Positions 40,183 to 52,948 of a DNA stretch of 64,000 nt are shown here, piece by piece. Position numbers and translations under genes: made by a program. A model generated the notes under the pieces. The model saw only the letters and a list, made by a program, of their open reading frames with translations, had not been told where the DNA came from and did not search any database. The stretch covers positions 1-64,000 of the forward strand of contig CAILRB010000100.1 in assembly GCA_903836465.1 (NCBI GenBank). Reading direction: 5' to 3'. The stretch comes from an uncultured Chlorobiaceae bacterium (GTDB taxonomy: Bacteria > Bacteroidota > Chlorobiia > Chlorobiales > Chlorobiaceae). Position 1 is the first letter of the stretch, and every line of letters starts with the position of its first letter.

Positions 40183-40227
40183 CTGTTTGCAAAAGAGAAT
40201 TTATTGCTTAAATTAAAAGACAAACAT

Positions 40228-40303
<76 letters not shown>

Positions 40304-40305
40304 GT

Positions 40306-40337
40306 AAAAGCCGCCCAGTTTTGAGGCGGCTTTTTTT
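40306..40337 (+). terminator. Rho-independent terminator after tRNA-fMet
   Basis: Hairpin AAAAGCCGCC ... GGCGGCTTTTTTT with a 9-base loop, starting three bases after the tRNA CCA end. Confidence 0.9.
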
Positions 40338-40362
40338 GTGCATATTTTTTCAAAGGCACGCA

Positions 40363-41625
40363 ATGACTCTTGATAATCGCTCGTTTTCGATGCTTTACGA
40401 TATTGGAAAAAAGAGCTTTTTCATACTCTTTCTAACTCTTGCAGCTCTCTTCCTTGTTCCGCATCCTGTTTTTGCTGAACGGTTGCTCTATGGTATTGAT
40501 CGGCTTGAAGCCTCCGGGTGTCGGGAGCTTTCAGGCTTGAGAGTTGGCCTTATTACCAATACGGCAGGCGTTACCCGGGGAGGGGAACCGGATTACTCGG
40601 TGCTGCTCCGGAGTGGCGTCAGGCTGAAATTTCTCATGGCTCCCGAGCACGGTTTTTCGGCTGATATCGAAGCGGGTAAAATGGTCGGCAGCACGGTTGT
40701 TGCCGATACTCTCCCGGTTTATTCACTCTACGGCACCTTAAAAAAACCTGACATCCACCAGTTGCGGCAGATTGATGTGCTTGTTTATGATCTTCAGGAC
40801 ATCGGTACACGGTGTTATACCTACATCTCGACCATGAAGATTGCCATGGAGGCTTGTAATGAGGCTGGCATAGCGTTCATGGTTCTGGATCGTCCCAATC
40901 CGGTTGCGCCCCTCTCGCCGGAAGGGTTCATGCTGACGCCCGGATATGAGTCCTTTGTCGGGGCCGTCAATATTCCATTTGTTCATGGAATGACGGCTGG
41001 TGAGATTGCCTTGCTGTTGAAGGAGCAGCGCTACAGGACGCTTGATCTCAGGGTGATACCCATGCAGGGGTATCGCAGAAACAGGTTTGCTGATGAGTAT
41101 CCGGGGTTCACCTTTAAGAGCCCTTCGCCGAATATCAGAACCGTTGATGCGGCCATAGTCTATCCCGCTACGGTCTTTCTTGAAGCGACAAGCGTTAGTG
41201 AAGGGCGTGGCACCGATGCTCCCTTCATGCAGTTTGGTGCCCCTTATATCAAGAGCGAGGAACTTGCTGTTGCTCTCAGGAAATACGAGCTTCCCGGAGT
41301 GTCGTTTGATAACGTTGTTTTTCAGCCATGCTCAGGCAAGTTCAGTGGAGAGCGTTGCGAGGGCCTGAAGCTTTCTCTGACCGACAGAAAAACCTTCAGC
41401 CCGTTCAGAACCGCAACAGCGCTTCTTCTGGTACTTCAACGTCTTTACCCTGATAACATTGCTCTTGACAGGAGGGGCAAGTTTTTTGATAACCTTGCAG
41501 GAACACCTCTTTTCAGGGAGATGATTAAAAAACAACTGCCGCTTGAGGTTATTATGGAAGAGAGCTGTCGTCAGGCAGGGGAGTTTAGCCGAAGTAATCC
41601 ATCACGTTTTTTTCTTTACCACTGA
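40363..41625 (+). CDS. Secreted exo-beta-N-acetylmuramidase, NamZ/DUF1343 family
   Basis: 420 residues from ATG 40363; the frame is open upstream only because it crosses the tRNA gene. The N-terminus has a signal peptide (FFILFLTLAALFLVPHPVFA). The family pattern of DUF1343 (PF07075; B. subtilis NamZ, GH171) is clear: GLITNTAGV, MAPEHGFSADIEAG, LPVYSLYG, VLVYDLQDIGTRCYTYI, LDRPNP. NamZ releases N-acetylmuramic acid from peptidoglycan ends, so this is likely a periplasmic wall-recycling or turnover enzyme. It converges with cfa with four bases between the stops. Confidence 0.85.
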   Translation: MTLDNRSFSMLYDIGKKSFFILFLTLAALFLVPHPVFAERLLYGIDRLEASGCRELSGLRVGLITNTAGVTRGGEPDYSVLLRSGVRLKFLMAPEHGFSADIEAGKMVGSTVVADTLPVYSLYGTLKKPDIHQLRQIDVLVYDLQDIGTRCYTYISTMKIAMEACNEAGIAFMVLDRPNPVAPLSPEGFMLTPGYESFVGAVNIPFVHGMTAGEIALLLKEQRYRTLDLRVIPMQGYRRNRFADEYPGFTFKSPSPNIRTVDAAIVYPATVFLEATSVSEGRGTDAPFMQFGAPYIKSEELAVALRKYELPGVSFDNVVFQPCSGKFSGERCEGLKLSLTDRKTFSPFRTATALLLVLQRLYPDNIALDRRGKFFDNLAGTPLFREMIKKQLPLEVIMEESCRQAGEFSRSNPSRFFLYH

Positions 41626-43666: not shown

Positions 43667-44605
43667 TTAAGCCCAAAATTTACTGTTTTCCAACCCCTGC
43701 CAAAGAATATCTGTATTCACCCAGTTAATGGTAAGTCTGTTGTTGAAAAAAGTCAACTGGCGTTTGGCATAGTTGCGGGTATGCTGTTTGATCAGTCTGA
43801 CTGCTTCATCAAAGTCAATGGTGTTGTCGAAATATTGAAACAGTTCCTGGTATCCCACCGATTGCAGTGCGGATGTTCTTTTGTCGGCAAGAAGTTTGTA
43901 ATACTTGTGATAGAGCAGTTCAGCCTCCTGGCAGAGACCAGCTTCAAGCATCTTGTCAGTGCGCTGGTTGATACGTTGATAGAGCGTGTCGCGGGGTATT
44001 GAAAGCCCTGTAGTCAAAAAGTGGAGGTCGGTTTGCTGCTTTTTTCTTCTTGACTGCAACTCAGTAACGCTCAAACCTGTTATCTCAATGATTTCAAGGC
44101 TCCGAATCAACCGCTGTGTTTTTGTGGGGTCAAGGGTTGCTGCCTGTTCAGGATCTTTCTGAAGCAGCTTTTCATAGAGGCGCTCTTTTCCAATATTTTC
44201 AAGTTCAATCAACAGCCTTGCTCTTATTTCCGGGTTTGCTGGCGGTAAATTCGCAAAACCTTTGAGTACTCCTTCAAGATAGAGGGTAGAGCCACCTGCT
44301 ATAATGGCACGTTTACCCCGTCGGTGAATATCCCGGATTCTTTCAACAGCTTCAGTGGCAAAGTCTCCCGCAGTGAAGGGCTCCCCGATATTTTTCTCAT
44401 TGACAAAATGATGTGTCACCTCCTGAAGCGCTTCAGCCGAAGGTTTTGCCGCGCCGATGTCGAGTTCCCGGTATATTTGTCGTGAATCGGCAGAAATGAT
44501 TTCAGCCCCGATTTTTTTTGCAACAGCGAGGGCAAGTTCCGATTTGCCGGAAGCCGTAGGGCCGAGGATCACAATGACTGGCGGCTGAGCTGCTATGGAG
44601 CGCAT
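43667..44605 (-). CDS. miaA: tRNA dimethylallyltransferase
   Basis: 312 residues. P-loop [11 protein letters not shown] near the N-terminus, [15 protein letters not shown] with the catalytic Asp, and [12 protein letters not shown]. It transfers a dimethylallyl group to A37 of tRNAs reading UNN codons. It is the last gene of a five-gene minus-strand operon, starting 21 bases after maf. Confidence 0.93.
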
Positions 44606-44626: not shown

Positions 44627-45205
44627 TTAAAAAAAGGTTTTCAGCGATTTACAGACACGCGAAATCGGGAGCCCGACGACATTATAATAGCACCCCTCAA
44701 TGCGCCTCACATGACAGGCTATCAGGGGATCCTGAATGCCGTAGGCTCCTGCCTTGTCGTAAGGTTTTTCTGACAGAATGTAGCGTTTAATTTCATTGTC
44801 GGACATTGGCTCAAACTCTACCGTGGTGCTCACGCATTCGGTGTGGGTTTGGTTGCCGTAAAGAAGCACAAAACCGGTATAGACCCGGTGGGAGCGATTC
44901 TGGAGACTTTTGAGCATGGTGAATGCCTCTTCGAATCCTTCAGGTTTTCCAAGAATGCGATTCCCTTTTGCCACGACAGTGTCAGCAGCAAGAATAATGG
45001 TATTGCGACCCTGGTCGGGCAGCAATAGCTTTGCAGCTTCGGCTTTTTCGAGAGCAATTCGGGTAACATTCTCTTCAATTGACTGTGAAGAGTCAAGTGT
45101 CTCATTGGTGGCAACCAGCACAGTTTCAAATGGAATGAGCATCAATGAGAGAATATCATGTCGTCTCGGTGACTGCGAGGCAAGAATCAGGGCTGGTTTT
45201 CCCAT
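44627..45205 (-). CDS. maf: Maf-family nucleoside triphosphate pyrophosphatase
   Basis: 192 residues with ASQSPRRHDIL at the N-terminus, the VAKGNRILGKP segment and YDKAGAYGIQDP. Maf proteins hydrolyse dTTP/UTP or modified nucleotides, as house-cleaning or septum-related enzymes. It lies 9 bases after the symporter gene. Confidence 0.93.
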   Translation of the reverse strand: MGKPALILASQSPRRHDILSLMLIPFETVLVATNETLDSSQSIEENVTRIALEKAEAAKLLLPDQGRNTIILAADTVVAKGNRILGKPEGFEEAFTMLKSLQNRSHRVYTGFVLLYGNQTHTECVSTTVEFEPMSDNEIKRYILSEKPYDKAGAYGIQDPLIACHVRRIEGCYYNVVGLPISRVCKSLKTFF

Positions 45206-45214
45206 GGTTGTTTT

Positions 45215-46975
45215 TCAGTTCAGGTTGTTCCAGCCCCGCCGGTTCAGGTCTGCAAAGATAAGGGATCCGGCAATTACTCCAGTACCAAGGAAAAGCGATC
45301 CCTGAAGGATGTCGCCGAAGATGACTTTTCCCGTACCGAAAAGAATAGCGTAAATCATTATAATTCCGAGTCCCCAGTCAACAAAGAGCATGACAAAGCC
45401 GCTGTCGGCCACAACATCGGGCAGATTTACAGAGACTTTTTTCCAGAGTGCGCCGCCGACTCGCGTGGTTCGGTAGAAGGTCTCTAATTGCGCGGTTTCG
45501 GTTGGCGGTGTCAGAAAAGTAACGATAAGGGTTGCCGCAATGGTAAAAGCAACAATAATAAAAATCGAGAAAGGAAAGGTAATTGAGGTAAAAAGTCTGA
45601 TCCAGGTGAACGCGATAAACGGTGCCACCATGGAGGTGATTTCCGACCAGGCATTCAGTCTCCACCAGAACCAGCGGAGGATAAGGACAAAACCAGTGCC
45701 TGCTCCGCACTGGATAATGAACTCCCATGCTCCGGTGATGGAGTCGAGCACAAAAAAGGTGATATAGAGAGCGAAAGCTGCGGTCAGGAATGTAGTGATT
45801 TTGGAAACGGCGACATAGTGCTTTTCATCCCCGTCTGTTTTCAGGAATCGCTTGTAGAAGTCGTTGATCAGATAGCTTGTGCCCCAGTTCAGGTGAGTTG
45901 AGAGCGTTGACATGTAGGCCGCCAGAAAAGCGGCAATAAGCAGTCCTTTCAGCCCGGGGGGCAGCACTGCTTTCATGACATAGACGAAGCCGTCCTCTTT
46001 CTGGTTCATCGGCAGGTTGGGGAACATGACGAGGCTCACAAGGCCGACAATGATCCATGGCCATGGTCTCAGACAATAATGGGCTACCGTAAACCAGAGG
46101 GTGGCAAGAAGCGAGTGTTTCTCGTTTTTTGCGCTCATCATGCGTTGGGCGATATAGCCCCCGCCTCCTGGTTCGGAGCCGGGGTACCATGATGACCACC
46201 ACTGGACAAACGCCATAGCTGCGAACGAGATGAAGGGGAGAGCTACTGCGCCGGTGATGCTTTTACCTGATGTCGAAGAGGTGAAGGTGGGGAAAAAGTC
46301 AAACATCCATGCCGGAAGGGCTTTGGTGAGGCCTCCGGCTGAGACCACTGCAGGTGAATGAACGGCGAGGACGGCAAGAATGATACAGCCTGTCATGGCT
46401 ATGACAAACTGCACAGCATCGGTAATGGAGACTCCCCATAGCCCTGAGAGGCCCGAATAAAAGGTGGTCAGCAGGACGAGAATGACAATGGCGACTTCAG
46501 GGTTGAGTTCTGGTACCATGATCCGGATGATCTTGAACATGGCAAGGTTGACCCAGCCAATAATGATGGCGTTGATGAAGAGTCCGAAATAGATGGCCTT
46601 GAAGCCGCGCAGAAAACGGGCTGCTGCGCCGCTGTAGCGCAACTCAATGAACTCAAGGTCAGTAAGAATTTCTGCCCTACGCCACAGGCGGGCAAAAAAG
46701 AAGACAGTCAACATCCCGCCAGAAACAAAGGTCCACCAGACCCAGTTGCCCGCGATACCGTTTTTGGCTACAAATCCTGCGACGGCAAGCGGAGTGTCAG
46801 CGGCAAAGGTTGTCGCTACCATCCCGGTACCGGCAATCCACCAGGGGAGCTGGCGCCCCGAAAGAAAAAACTCTCCGACATTTTCCGAAGCGCGTGAGGA
46901 AAACCACAAACCAATAACCAGCGTCAGCAGGAGGTAGCCGACGATGAAACTGTAATCGAGGATGTTGAGCTGCAT
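45215..46975 (-). CDS. Sodium/solute symporter, SSS family
   Basis: 586 residues with about 13-15 hydrophobic segments. The SSS pattern is visible from the first helix (YSFIVGYLLLTLVIGLWFSS) through FFLSGRQLPWW, GLWGVSITDAVQF and AAYMSTLSTHLNWGTSYL. The substrate is not predictable. Being next to a PfkB kinase and a GH13-like protein suggests a sugar or nucleoside, but that is inference. The start lies 39 bases after the kinase stop. Confidence 0.88.
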   Translation of the reverse strand: MQLNILDYSFIVGYLLLTLVIGLWFSSRASENVGEFFLSGRQLPWWIAGTGMVATTFAADTPLAVAGFVAKNGIAGNWVWWTFVSGGMLTVFFFARLWRRAEILTDLEFIELRYSGAAARFLRGFKAIYFGLFINAIIIGWVNLAMFKIIRIMVPELNPEVAIVILVLLTTFYSGLSGLWGVSITDAVQFVIAMTGCIILAVLAVHSPAVVSAGGLTKALPAWMFDFFPTFTSSTSGKSITGAVALPFISFAAMAFVQWWSSWYPGSEPGGGGYIAQRMMSAKNEKHSLLATLWFTVAHYCLRPWPWIIVGLVSLVMFPNLPMNQKEDGFVYVMKAVLPPGLKGLLIAAFLAAYMSTLSTHLNWGTSYLINDFYKRFLKTDGDEKHYVAVSKITTFLTAAFALYITFFVLDSITGAWEFIIQCGAGTGFVLILRWFWWRLNAWSEITSMVAPFIAFTWIRLFTSITFPFSIFIIVAFTIAATLIVTFLTPPTETAQLETFYRTTRVGGALWKKVSVNLPDVVADSGFVMLFVDWGLGIIMIYAILFGTGKVIFGDILQGSLFLGTGVIAGSLIFADLNRRGWNNLN

Positions 46976-47014: not shown

Positions 47015-47926
47015 TTATTCGTCTATTCTTGAAAGTTCACGGAAGCTTTGGAACCGGTCTTCGATTTCAAGCAGATCAAGTGCCGCAATTTTTTCGGTTC
47101 CGAACTTTTCAACACAGAAGCTCGCCATGGTGCTGCCATAAAGAACCGCCCTGCGCAGTTCAATATCGTTGATGGTTTCACATCTTGAAAGGTGGCCGAT
47201 AAATCCGCCAGCAAAAGTATCGCCGGCACCGGTAGGGTCAAAAATGTTTTCGAGAGGGAAGGCGGGAGCGGCAAAGATACCATCGTCGGTAAAGAGCAGG
47301 GCGCCGTGCTCGCCTTTCTTGATGATCAGAATTTTCGGGCCCATCTGGCGGATGATTCTTGCTGATTTGACAAGGTTTGGGTCGCCGCTCAGGAGTCTTG
47401 CCTCCCCATCGTTGATGATAAAAATATCAACACGCTTAAGAGTTTTTTTAAGTGCCTCCAGTTTACCCTCAATCCAGAAGTTCATGGTGTCACAGATGAC
47501 GAGTTTCGGTTTATTGATCTGGTCAAGCACCTTGAGCTGCAGTACCGGGTCGATATTGCCGAGGCAGACAAATTTGGCATTCTGATACTGATCAGGTACA
47601 ACAGGATCGAAATCTGCAAAGACGTTCAATTGGGTGTCGAGCGTGTCGCGGGTGTTCATGTCATAATGATACCGGCCCGCCCAGCGGAAGGTTTTTCCGT
47701 ACTCGATTTTCTGGATACCTTTTGTGTCTATGTTTTTTGAATGCAACACTGAAAAATGTTCATCCTCGAAGTCGTAGCCGACAACACCAACCATCTGTAT
47801 CGTTTCGGTAAAATAGCTGGCCGACAGGGCGATATAGGTGGATGACCCGCCAAGGGTGTTGTCGGAATGTCCAAAGGGGGTTTCGATATCGTCAAAGGCA
47901 AGAGAGCCAACAATGAGAAGAGACAT
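47015..47926 (-). CDS. PfkB-family carbohydrate kinase
   Basis: 303 residues. The N-terminal GSLAFDDIETPFG and the C-terminal signature DPTGAGDTFAGGFIGHL (catalytic Asp) place it in the ribokinase/PfkB group. The lid region resembles nucleoside or unusual sugar kinases; substrate unassigned. It is encoded 29 bases after the GH13-like gene and before the symporter, consistent with uptake and phosphorylation of one compound. Confidence 0.87.
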   Translation of the reverse strand: MSLLIVGSLAFDDIETPFGHSDNTLGGSSTYIALSASYFTETIQMVGVVGYDFEDEHFSVLHSKNIDTKGIQKIEYGKTFRWAGRYHYDMNTRDTLDTQLNVFADFDPVVPDQYQNAKFVCLGNIDPVLQLKVLDQINKPKLVICDTMNFWIEGKLEALKKTLKRVDIFIINDGEARLLSGDPNLVKSARIIRQMGPKILIIKKGEHGALLFTDDGIFAAPAFPLENIFDPTGAGDTFAGGFIGHLSRCETINDIELRRAVLYGSTMASFCVEKFGTEKIAALDLLEIEDRFQSFRELSRIDE

Positions 47927-47955: not shown

Positions 47956-49848
47956 TTACAAAAGTTCAAAAAGCATGCATTGTCCAGGTTTGCAGGTGAC
48001 GCCAAGCCGATGTTCCTTGATCGGAAAGGATTGTTTGCTGATCAGGTCGTACATGGTACCATTTTCCATGCTGAATTCAAGAAAACCGCTTTTGGTGTCG
48101 TAAAGGTTACTGTTGCCGATAAAAAGCAGTGATTGAGCAGCAGTTGTTCTCATTACGGCAAAAAGTTCAGGTTCGCTGGTATAGGGGATGGTCATCGAAC
48201 CGGGTTCTCCGCACAGTACCAGATCAAGGTAGTGTGAACGTATCTCCAAAATGTTACGGATATAGCTGTTAAGGGGATTTAGCCCATTGCTGTTTTCCCA
48301 GTCGTAGCTGAAGACGCTGAAGAGCGGAAGTTTTTCGGGAGGATAAAGAGCCCTGTCTTCATCTCTGAAATTGAGTCCGAGGTTAACCGGGTACCATTCG
48401 CAGATCTCCATGCCCGACTGCAGAAAAGGTATGGCTGGCAGTACGGCGCTGAGGGTAAAGATAAAGATCGAATAGTTTCGTCCGGCTTCCTGACGGGGAT
48501 AGCGGAAACAAACACGCGGGGTGTTGTGATTTTCTCCTGTCCCGAAAAATGGCAGTGGGACGCCGGTTTTATTCAGGTTGTTTAATAATCCCCGGAGAAA
48601 AACAACATCATGGATGACAAACGGGAGCGTGCCGAACACCACATTAAATCCTTCCTTGCGCACTTCAGCGGTTGGATCAAAATTTTCATCCCAGAAAGCA
48701 AAATCCGGTTTTTTTTCGCGAGCCTTTTGAACAATTGTTCGTTTCAGAAGGGCAGGCAGGGCGTGGCCCATATCAATCATTGCGCCGTCAATCTGATATT
48801 GCTCTTGATAACTCGGTATAATATCCAAAATTTCGTCCCACAGGCCGGTATTGAAGGTTTCCGGATTGTCAAGTGCACTGTCATACATCCTGATGGTGTT
48901 GTAGGCAATGTAGTTGAACGTCTCATGGTTATGCATTTTCAGATAGGTAACGTCACTCCATGGAGGCTGCTGGTCGTCAGGAGGCCAGTCGGAGAAGGCG
49001 CTTGCGATATGACAAGGTGCACCTGTTTTGGTGGTTCCTGAAATCTGGCCATCCGCGTCCTGTACTGTTACGGGTTGAGCAACGAACTGCTCCCGGTACT
49101 CCGCTTGTGGAGCAGGAAGGTTGCGTAACTTATGGCATTCGACAAGATCATAAATCTTGCTGAGCGTCACAGTGTCAAAATGTGGCGGGCCGTATTTGCC
49201 GGTATTGTTTCTCAGCCAGTAAAACCATTCAGGATGATCCTTTATCCAGTCGCTGTCAATGGATGTTGTTCTGAAGACAAATTCAAGGACAACGTGCATG
49301 TCAAGAAGATGTGCAGCCTCAACAAATGCTTTAAGCAATATTTCTGAAGAAAGTCCGAGGGCAGGTTCGTTGAGCAGTGGATCAAGCTTTCGGGGATTTT
49401 TAACGGCATAAGGAGAGCCGAGAGTGCCCTTTCTGCTTTGGATACCTATTTCAGTAACCGGCAACAGATAGAGAGTATTTGCGCCAAGACTTTTTATATA
49501 AGGCAGAAGAGCAATCGCTTTGAGGAGTGTACCCGTTTCTCTGAATCCGGATTCAAGCGGGTCGGCGCTGATGACTCCGTCGCCGTCATGATCAAACGCG
49601 GCAGTGAGGCGTACAAAAAGGTTGTAAACCACCGCAGTGGTTTTCCATTCAGCTTGTTTTGGTGAAGCTGTTGCGGCGTTGTTCAGGATGTTTTCGATAA
49701 TGTGACCGAAGTATTCGGCAGGATTGACCTGTTCCGTGCCGGTCGTTCTGCCAGTCCAGATACCGGGTACCCGGTAGGATCTTTCGGTCAAGCGCTCAGG
49801 CAGTCCTTTCAACGCCAGAAGAAGCGATTCAAGATGAGTTGTCTGCAA
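47956..49848 (-). CDS. GH13 alpha-amylase-like protein with altered catalytic motifs
   Basis: About 630 residues with a (beta/alpha)8 alpha-amylase-type core. Expected GH13 motifs are partly lost. Region I is [11 protein letters not shown] instead of D..x.NH. Region [11 protein letters not shown], keeps the nucleophile Asp but not the Arg. Region [11 protein letters not shown], keeps the acid Glu. Region IV is ENHNTPR with Asn for the third Asp. The overall pattern ([17 protein letters not shown]) recalls the maltosyltransferase GlgE branch. It could be a glucanotransferase with changed specificity or a binding protein. The start is a TTG at 49848 without a clear ribosome-binding site, so the true start is uncertain. 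First gene of the operon. Confidence 0.75.
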
Positions 49849-50836: not shown

Positions 50837-52948
50837 GTGAAAATCAGCATATATTATACAATATTCAGGGTGTTGTTCTCGGCACTTGTTTTTCAGTTTC
50901 TGGCTCAGCCGGTTCTTGCTGTGGATCCTGTTGTCGTCAATAACCGGGGAGAGCTCAGCAAGTCCTCAGTTACCGATATTCTTGACAGCCTTGTGAATGC
51001 TATATACTTTAAGGATGAGCACTTTTCCATTCCTAAAGAGTCTGAAAAGTTCGGATTTCCCTCCTCTTTCGTGCCACAGTACAGTGATTCGGTCTATACG
51101 GCAAGAATCGCCACATTGAACCGCAAAACACCGCTCCATTTTGTCTACAATGCTCAGGTAAGGGGATTTATAAGACTTTATGCTGTCGAAAAAAGAAGCA
51201 TGACTTCCAAAATTCTCGGATTGAGCAAAATCTATTTTCCGCTTTTTGAGGAAAAACTTGATGCTAACAATGTTCCGCTTGAGATGAAGTACCTCGCCAT
51301 TGTTGAGTCAGCACTTAATCCGACGGCGGTTTCTCCTGCAGGAGCAAAAGGGCTTTGGCAGTTTATGTATGGAACTGGTAAAATGTATGGCCTGCAGTCA
51401 TCATCCTTCATTGATGAGCGGTACGATCCCTACAAGTCTTCAGTTTCAGCAAGCAGGTATCTGAGAGATCTCTACAATATTTATGGTGACTGGTTTCTAG
51501 CGCTTGCAGCATATAATTCTGGTCCGGGAAATGTTAACAAGGCAATCAGGCGGGCTGGCGGGGTAAAAGACTACTGGGCAATATGGGATTACCTTCCGGC
51601 TGAAACAAGAGGTTATGTCCCTGCTTTTATTGCGGTTAACTATATTATGAGTTATTATAACGAGCACAATATCCGACCGGTTGAACCGGGTTTTTTGTAT
51701 CAGGATATCGATACCTTAAGAACCTCACGTCTTTTGTCGTTCGAGCAGATCAATGAAACTATCGGAGTGCCGATGGCTGATCTTCAGTTTCTTAATCCGC
51801 AGTACAAGCTTGGTATTATTCCTGCTGCAGGGAATTCCGGCAATGTTATCAGGCTTCCGAAAAAATTTATCCCTCAGTTTCAGAAACGGGAAAATGAAAT
51901 ATATGCCTATAAATCTGCTAAAACGATTGAACGTGAGGCGCTGTTTGCCCGTCTTGAAACTCTCCATGCCAGCTCAGTCCACAGGAATAGAGATGAAGGA
52001 AAAACACAGAAGGTTCATATCGTCGAACAAGGTGAAAGCCTGGGCTCAATTGCAAGGATGTACCGTACCTATATCAGCCAGCTCATCGCCTGGAACAGCC
52101 TGAAGGATTCTGATGTCTCTCCCGGCCAGAAGCTTATTGTTTTCGGTGGATCTGACAATGCTTTTTCTTCACAACCCAATGTTTCGAAACGAAGGGCAAA
52201 GAATAAGCGAGGAAGTCGCAGGTTGAAAAAAGAGGTTATACTTCAGAGAAAATATATCGCTCAGTCCAGGCCGCAGTCTCAGCTTCTGCCCCAGCCGCCA
52301 CCTCAGCACCAGCCAAAGTCTCAGCCACTGGTGAAAGAGATCGTCGCCCAAAGGTTGGCTATAACTGTTGAGCGTGATGTGCTGTTTGCTTTCGTTGAAA
52401 TTCAGAAGGATCTGAAGGCAGTATCGAGCGTTCCGCCAGCAAAACCTGAACTGAAGTCAGTGCCCGGCGTTCCACCAGCCAAGCCTGAACTGAAGGCAGT
52501 GCCCGGCGTTCCACCAGCAAAACCTGAACTGAAGGCAGTGCCCGGCGTTCCGCCAGTAGAGCCGGATTTGAAGTCAGTACCCGGCATTCCGCCAGCCAAG
52601 CCTGAACTGAAGGCAGTGCCCGGCGTTCCGCCAGCCAAGCCTGAACTGAAGGCAGTACCCGGCGTTCCGCCAGCCAAGCCTGAACTGAAGTCAGTGCCCA
52701 GCGTTTCGCCCTCAGAGCCTGATGCTGAAGGGCAAGTATATATAACGCATGTTGTTGAGGAAGGCGAAAACCTCGGATCCATTGCTGCGAAGTATGGTAC
52801 TACTGTCAGCCAGCTCATAGCATGGAACAGCCTGACAGATTCTCAGGTTGCACCAGGTCAGAAACTTATTGTATTTGTCAATGACGGCAATAGTGCTTCC
52901 TCCCAGGCGGTATCCGGAAAGGGAGATGTTTCAAAGCCGTTACAGTAA
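50837..52948 (+). CDS. MltD-like lytic transglycosylase with two LysM domains and a 13-residue repeat
   Basis: 703 residues with a GTG start. Signal peptide (VLFSALVFQFLAQPVLA), then an SLT/MltD domain: the catalytic Glu is in AIVESALNPTAVSPAGAKGLWQF-type sequence (ESALNP, GAKGLWQ), with YDPYKSSVSASRYLRDLY and ALAAYNSGPGNV. The first LysM lies near 395-440 (VEQGESLGSIARMY) and the second near 635-685 (VEEGENLGSIAAKYG). Between them are a Gln/Pro-rich stretch and eight copies of a 13-residue repeat of the form AVPGVPPAKPELK (52418-52729). It cleaves peptidoglycan in the periplasm; the repeat is likely a flexible spacer. Confidence 0.9.
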   Translation: MKISIYYTIFRVLFSALVFQFLAQPVLAVDPVVVNNRGELSKSSVTDILDSLVNAIYFKDEHFSIPKESEKFGFPSSFVPQYSDSVYTARIATLNRKTPLHFVYNAQVRGFIRLYAVEKRSMTSKILGLSKIYFPLFEEKLDANNVPLEMKYLAIVESALNPTAVSPAGAKGLWQFMYGTGKMYGLQSSSFIDERYDPYKSSVSASRYLRDLYNIYGDWFLALAAYNSGPGNVNKAIRRAGGVKDYWAIWDYLPAETRGYVPAFIAVNYIMSYYNEHNIRPVEPGFLYQDIDTLRTSRLLSFEQINETIGVPMADLQFLNPQYKLGIIPAAGNSGNVIRLPKKFIPQFQKRENEIYAYKSAKTIEREALFARLETLHASSVHRNRDEGKTQKVHIVEQGESLGSIARMYRTYISQLIAWNSLKDSDVSPGQKLIVFGGSDNAFSSQPNVSKRRAKNKRGSRRLKKEVILQRKYIAQSRPQSQLLPQPPPQHQPKSQPLVKEIVAQRLAITVERDVLFAFVEIQKDLKAVSSVPPAKPELKSVPGVPPAKPELKAVPGVPPAKPELKAVPGVPPVEPDLKSVPGIPPAKPELKAVPGVPPAKPELKAVPGVPPAKPELKSVPSVSPSEPDAEGQVYITHVVEEGENLGSIAAKYGTTVSQLIAWNSLTDSQVAPGQKLIVFVNDGNSASSQAVSGKGDVSKPLQ
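52418..52729 (+). repeat. Eight tandem 39-base coding repeats
   Basis: Eight in-frame units encode AVPGVPPAKPELK or close variants; the fourth has VEPDLK and the eighth SVPSVSPSEPDAE. Near-identity of units 3, 6 and 7 at the DNA level suggests recent expansion, so copy number is likely to vary between strains. Confidence 0.95.

Follow-up and report, generated by a model that had tools for sequence, protein, structure and literature searches.

A widespread GH13-fold protein of the maltosyltransferase type with a changed catalytic site: a variant from a large uncharacterised branch and probably not part of a three-gene pathway

Whether a GH13-fold protein in which two residues of the catalytic site are replaced still works as an enzyme, and whether the genes beside it form a pathway with it, are the questions raised by a locus in an uncultured Chlorobiaceae bacterium. 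The DNA analysed is a stretch of 64,000 nucleotides (contig CAILRB010000100.1), called here the window, and the gene in question occupies positions 47956..49848 of its (-) strand. It encodes a protein of 630 amino acids which was assigned to the GH13 fold, maltosyltransferase type, from Pfam, from its sequence match to 1gju (the maltosyltransferase of T. maritima) and from an AlphaFold2 model. In ordinary GH13 enzymes the loss of a triad residue normally means partial or complete loss of activity, according to PMC5347038.

The open reading frame starts with a TTG codon, and since no signal peptide was seen by eye the protein is taken as cytoplasmic. Its match to PF00128 scores 24.7 bits against the Pfam cut-off of 22, all NCBIfam models stay below cut-off for it, and the NCBIfam matches of 13 diverse members of its clade at E 1e-5 are spread over 14 models. 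The homologue from the window's genome groups with those of other genomes of the order Chlorobiales. The gene is followed on the same strand by genes for a PfkB-family kinase (47015..47926) and an SSF sodium:solute symporter (45215..46975), separated by gaps of 29 and 39 bp. The preliminary description regarded these three genes as an operon, but the (-) strand run goes on across gaps of 9 and 21 bp into a presumably maf-like gene (44627..45205) and a presumably miaA-like gene (43667..44605), which it had omitted. Two further reading frames of the window deserve a remark. The long ORF at 40204-41625 reads through a tRNA-Met gene (40228-40303), so tRNA sequence is being translated in its opening part and the real start of the protein lies further in. 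The presumably LysM/lytic-transglycosylase-like product of 50837-52948 carries a run of near-identical PPAKPELKAVPGV repeats.

The fold has been predicted with AlphaFold2 from 80 sequences (pLDDT 93.6, pTM 0.94), a rerun of an earlier poor model built from 11 sequences (pLDDT 67.1). The predicted model consists of a (beta/alpha)8 barrel and a C-terminal beta domain, and its best PDB matches are GH13 enzymes: the Foldseek search placed 1gju at the top (E 8.5e-46, TM 0.79), followed by GlgE. The likeness to 1gju extends over the whole length of the model, with VIA-align giving Z 44.4 over 576 residues (rmsd 3.0, 30% identity), while the next chain reached Z 31.7. The same structure is the best solved relative by sequence, at E 3e-67 for the single sequence and E 1e-97 for the profile.

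The HMMER alignment to 1gju pairs Asp359 (codon at 48772..48774, this and the following codons on the (-) strand) with Asp385 and Glu388 (48685..48687) with Glu414, so that the nucleophile and the acid/base, which had been described as present, do stand at those positions. It bears out equally the replacement of the region II Arg and the region IV Asp: two residues ahead of the nucleophile, Met357 (48778..48780) stands in place of Arg383, and Asn442 (48523..48525) in place of the transition-state residue Asp468, and the full set Asp385/Glu414/Asp468/Arg383 of the T. maritima enzyme is thus not found here. Region I, which had been called unrecognisable, can be read; that claim went too far. It has the sequence EFVFRT, with Glu189 (49282..49284) aligned to Asp201 in the DFIPRT of 1gju, and it has no Asn-His pair, as is also the case in 1gju. 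Arg193, Thr194 and His362 are paired with Arg205, Thr206 and His388. A region I Glu occurs as well in the TreS of the same genome (TIGR02456, 874.6 bits), where the region reads ELVVNH. As a control, seven GH13 loci of the genome were searched for region patterns. DGxRxD and HD are both present in TreS and in a 675-aa protein, HD in a 489-aa protein, and DGAMID and HN in the window gene; for the remaining three loci the region pattern gave nothing usable. In region IV the HMMER profile match to GlgE is displaced by three positions, so that Asp480 falls opposite Arg445; the alignments to 1gju and 4gkl have therefore been used for that region.

Lys140 (49429..49431) corresponds to Lys151 of 1gju, which reportedly closes the -2 (maltosyl) subsite, and to Lys264 of S. 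coelicolor GlgE; it is Lys in 80 of 80 aligned rows and in all 128 homologues. According to PMC4526890, GlgE builds its -2 pocket from Lys264, Asn268, Tyr535, Asp359, residue 279, Lys534 and the Ala282 amide, and its Arg392 and Asp480 touch O2' and O3' of the sugar in the -1 position. In the profile alignment Lys264 of GlgE is paired with Lys140 and residue 279 with Ser145 (80/80 each), Ala282 with Ala148 (69/80), and Lys534 with a variable position (Lys in 37, Thr in 18 and Arg in 11 of 80). Asp359 of GlgE is probably the counterpart of the invariant Asp299, in a stretch matched by motif only, and Arg392 lies one residue ahead of the aligned block, opposite Met357. As the -2 residues are kept and the Arg and Asp are replaced, the maltosyl pocket would be largely retained, with both polar holds on the -1 sugar lost.

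Conservation was assessed in 128 aligned homologues (29 from the first search for relatives, 20 from the phylum search and 79 named loci; L032, whose reading started on a stop codon, was left out, and some rows represent duplicate genomes). Glu189, Arg193, Asp359, His362, Glu388, His441 and Arg445 are invariant in 128/128, position 357 is Met in 122 and Leu in 6, and position 442 is Asn in 127 and Asp in one. Since the substitutions are fixed in 127 or 128 of the 128 sequences they cannot be ascribed to chance, and such fixation of the site points to a working site of some kind. In an alignment of 80 rows only 60 of the 630 window positions are invariant, among them Asp359, Glu388, Lys140, Ser145, Trp297 and Asp299. 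Against four close relatives the dN/dS of the GH13 gene is 0.114-0.233, well below 1 and indicative of purifying selection, and 1.6 to 4.7 times that of three operon neighbours (PfkB 0.047-0.068, SSF 0.030-0.050, maf 0.072-0.108). A decaying pseudogene is ruled out by the residue invariance together with dN/dS. The single homologue with Asp442 rather than Asn (L171, 10001-11629) still has Met at position 357; because it falls inside the Elusimicrobiota group its Asp looks like a reversal and not an ancestral state, and this natural half-revertant could be useful in enzymology.

The gene has been found in 95 of 296 genomes of the GTDB phylum, that is in 75/75 genomes of the order and in 20/221 others; in an earlier sample it was missing from one 85%-complete genome (G002). 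Three of 201 Chloroflexota genomes, the centre genome included, carry it at E 1e-15, and among these three matches none keeps the Arg/Asp as a transitional form. A scan of 84,980 species, one genome each, returned 558 encoding stretches. The best 80 of these 558 gave 79 named loci; their selection by likeness to the query biases them to query-like sequences, so they do not amount to a census, and their titles include Ignavibacteria, Kapabacteria, Bacteroidetes, Chloroflexi, Elusimicrobia, Chlorobi and one Desulfobulbaceae bin. The 20 Chloroflexota rows form one group and the four Elusimicrobiota rows another in a quick ML tree (106 different rows among 111). The clade covers Chlorobiota, Ignavibacteriota/Kapabacteria, Chloroflexota and Elusimicrobiota, i.e. 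at least four phyla. In one genome (G220, contigs C38 and C22) the GH13 gene and the kinase gene are each present twice, as two adjacent pairs.

The neighbourhoods outside Chlorobiales differ between lineages. A neighbour map placed 77 of the 79 named loci, with gene identities taken from representatives. Among the 79 loci from the best 80 of 558, 9 have an adjacent gene for GH57 with CBM20/CBM48 modules, 9 encode a solute-binding protein nearby, 8 a permease and 8 an MFS sugar transporter, and two further GH13 genes are present in 5 and 5 loci, respectively. Genomes of the Ignavibacteria type have operons of the maltodextrin type (GH13 genes, GH57 with CBM20/CBM48, MFS, a binding protein and two permeases), and in most lineages beyond them the neighbours are unrelated (LytR-type, HhH-GPD and a gene that is presumably uvrC-like). 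In 5 of these 79 loci (L143, L165, L168, L170 and L175) the gene immediately upstream, on the same strand, encodes 6-phosphofructokinase.

With these data the explanations can be weighed. The preliminary description proposed that the GH13 gene may form an undescribed pathway with the kinase and symporter genes for taking up or processing a glucan-derived sugar. In a pathway of this kind the symporter would import a sugar, the GH13 protein process it and the PfkB kinase phosphorylate it. The tight same-strand cluster in the window speaks for such a pathway, as does the adjacency of PfkB to the GH13 gene in 33 of 34 Chlorobiales loci (in the exception, G008, the two genes are near the ends of different contigs). 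The adjacency is a matter of this order, however: it was seen in 0/19 loci of other Bacteroidota, and genes of the kinase's cluster are near 6 of the 79 named loci from the best 80 of 558. The kinase itself is widespread in the phylum (230/296 genomes at E 1e-40); it is found in 75/75 genomes of the order, in 151/201 genomes without the GH13 gene and in only 4/20 of the other carriers, an absence in the direction of avoidance (Fisher p 1.6e-6, genome relatedness ignored). At E 1e-10 or better the kinase matches a single PDB sequence, 3kd6, a nucleoside kinase. The symporter gene is adjacent in 21/23 loci of the same genus and in L102, the one locus examined in the family's other genus, but in 0/11 loci from other families of the order, so that its adjacency is limited to the window's family; in 9/9 other genomes of the order tested its orthologues are unlinked and located elsewhere. 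The three genes are thus not linked across genomes, and a dedicated kinase/symporter pathway, very improbable in our estimate, is not supported by linkage and co-occurrence; the kinase and the symporter are Chlorobiales neighbours, not partners in a dedicated pathway. The link to glucan that had been suggested along with the pathway stands insofar as the fold and the operons of other lineages point to it. The protein is a variant of the maltosyltransferase-type GH13 fold that belongs to a large uncharacterised branch, and not a sign of a new three-gene pathway.

On the function of this variant we lean, at roughly even chances, to an active, presumably cytoplasmic enzyme that handles maltosyl units of alpha-glucan with a changed (neutralised) -1 subsite. 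Such an enzyme, belonging to a large clade that lies next to the T. maritima maltosyltransferase and is uncharacterised, would bind a maltosyl unit in subsites -2/-1 and form or break one bond by a retaining double displacement, with Asp359 as the nucleophile and Glu388 as the acid/base, and so maltosyl units might be moved between, or trimmed from, glycogen or maltodextrin. In GlgE an Arg holds O2 and an Asp holds O3 of the -1 sugar; since both have neutral replacements here, the -1 site would have to work differently, probably with slower turnover or a weaker hold on the donor. This reading agrees with the invariance of Asp359 and Glu388 amid 570 variable positions of 630, with the purifying selection, with the match of the model to 1gju, with the conserved -2 residues, with the maltodextrin-type operons and with the precedent of the active BmaN1; the replacement of both Arg and Asp, the activity that GH13 enzymes normally lose with a triad residue, a dN/dS above that of the operon neighbours and the unrelated neighbours in most lineages stand against it. 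Its main rival is a pseudo-enzyme, rather unlikely in our view, which would bind maltose or maltodextrin through the -2 pocket and regulate or scaffold glycogen turnover without catalysis: two residues normally essential for catalysis are uncharged in all 128 sequences but one (Asp442 of L171), and the glucan context of some lineages would suit it. It is made less likely by the strict retention of nucleophile and acid, which do not vary in 128 sequences from at least four phyla and which a binding protein has no evident need to keep both. It is also conceivable, if improbable, that the protein is an active enzyme for another donor, with something other than ordinary glucose in the -1 position, for example a sugar modified at O2/O3 or a different monosaccharide, so that the contacts to O2 and O3 were dropped. 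Precisely the residues that contact O2'/O3' in GlgE (PMC4526890) are neutral and fixed here, with the catalytic pair and the -2 pocket retained, which would fit that proposal, yet its neighbours include no conserved gene for such a sugar and the operons indicate ordinary maltodextrin.

Returning to the active maltosyl-handling enzyme, we tentatively suggest, a little short of an even chance, that the clade constitutes a widespread undescribed GH13-derived class from at least four phyla, which would transfer maltosyl (or modified maltosyl) units by Asp/Glu without the transition-state Asp and the region II Arg. If this class is real, two residues held invariant in GH13 can be replaced together with catalysis kept. 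An active protein would represent another natural route for the GH13-type reaction and a tractable test of the roles of the region IV Asp and the region II Arg; an inactive one would be a deeply conserved glucan-binding pseudo-enzyme in glycogen-storing phototrophs. Either way, every one of the 75 Chlorobiales genomes sampled from the phylum has the gene, yet the window protein is below every NCBIfam cut-off.

Among known systems the closest is the maltosyltransferase of T. maritima (1gju/1gjw), with which the protein shares the full-length fold including the N-terminal part, the equivalents of Lys151, the region I Arg205/Thr206, the DMGHALP motif, Glu414 and the TPR motif; it differs in having Glu189, Met357, Asn442 and His441 where 1gju has Asp201, Arg383, Asp468 and Pro467. 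GlgE (GH13_3) resembles it in having the barrel (Z about 30) and, at the -2 site, Lys264 and the GSP motif, whereas its Arg392 and Asp480 are without counterpart in the window protein. Its phosphate contact Asn395 corresponds to Met360, so a GlgE-like enzyme acting on maltose-1-phosphate is disfavoured; the contacts Lys355, Asn352 and Tyr357 lie outside the stretch aligned by the profile. The genome (G000, contig C102, ~87000-91400, L001 and L007) also has a TreS-maltokinase fusion beside a 670-aa protein whose match to the window protein is confined to the stretch shared with GlgE and which may itself be GlgE. The set of substitutions was not described in the titles and abstract openings found by the literature searches, whose coverage of subscription papers is thin, and in a 2024 paper on GH13_48/49 (PMC11239784) maltosyltransferase, arginine and Chlorob have 0 occurrences each. 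The amylases 4gkl and 3dhu (probably of the GH13_48 type) have the stretch 101-220 in common with the window protein, and 4gkl shares the region IV motif ENHxxPR, reading ENHDQPR against ENHNTPR here. BmaN1 (GH13_45) is active with His for the transition-state Asp and Glu for the region I Asp, and its group resembles the present clade in belonging to GH13, in lacking the transition-state Asp and in the region I Glu (PMC5347038). In that source the nucleophile position of BmaN1 is a Lys, with an Asp one step on, and its transition-state Asp is replaced by His; the window protein has the nucleophile Asp359 in place, Asn442 instead of His and, in addition, Met for the region II Arg, and thus lacks the His and Lys that mark the BmaN1 group.
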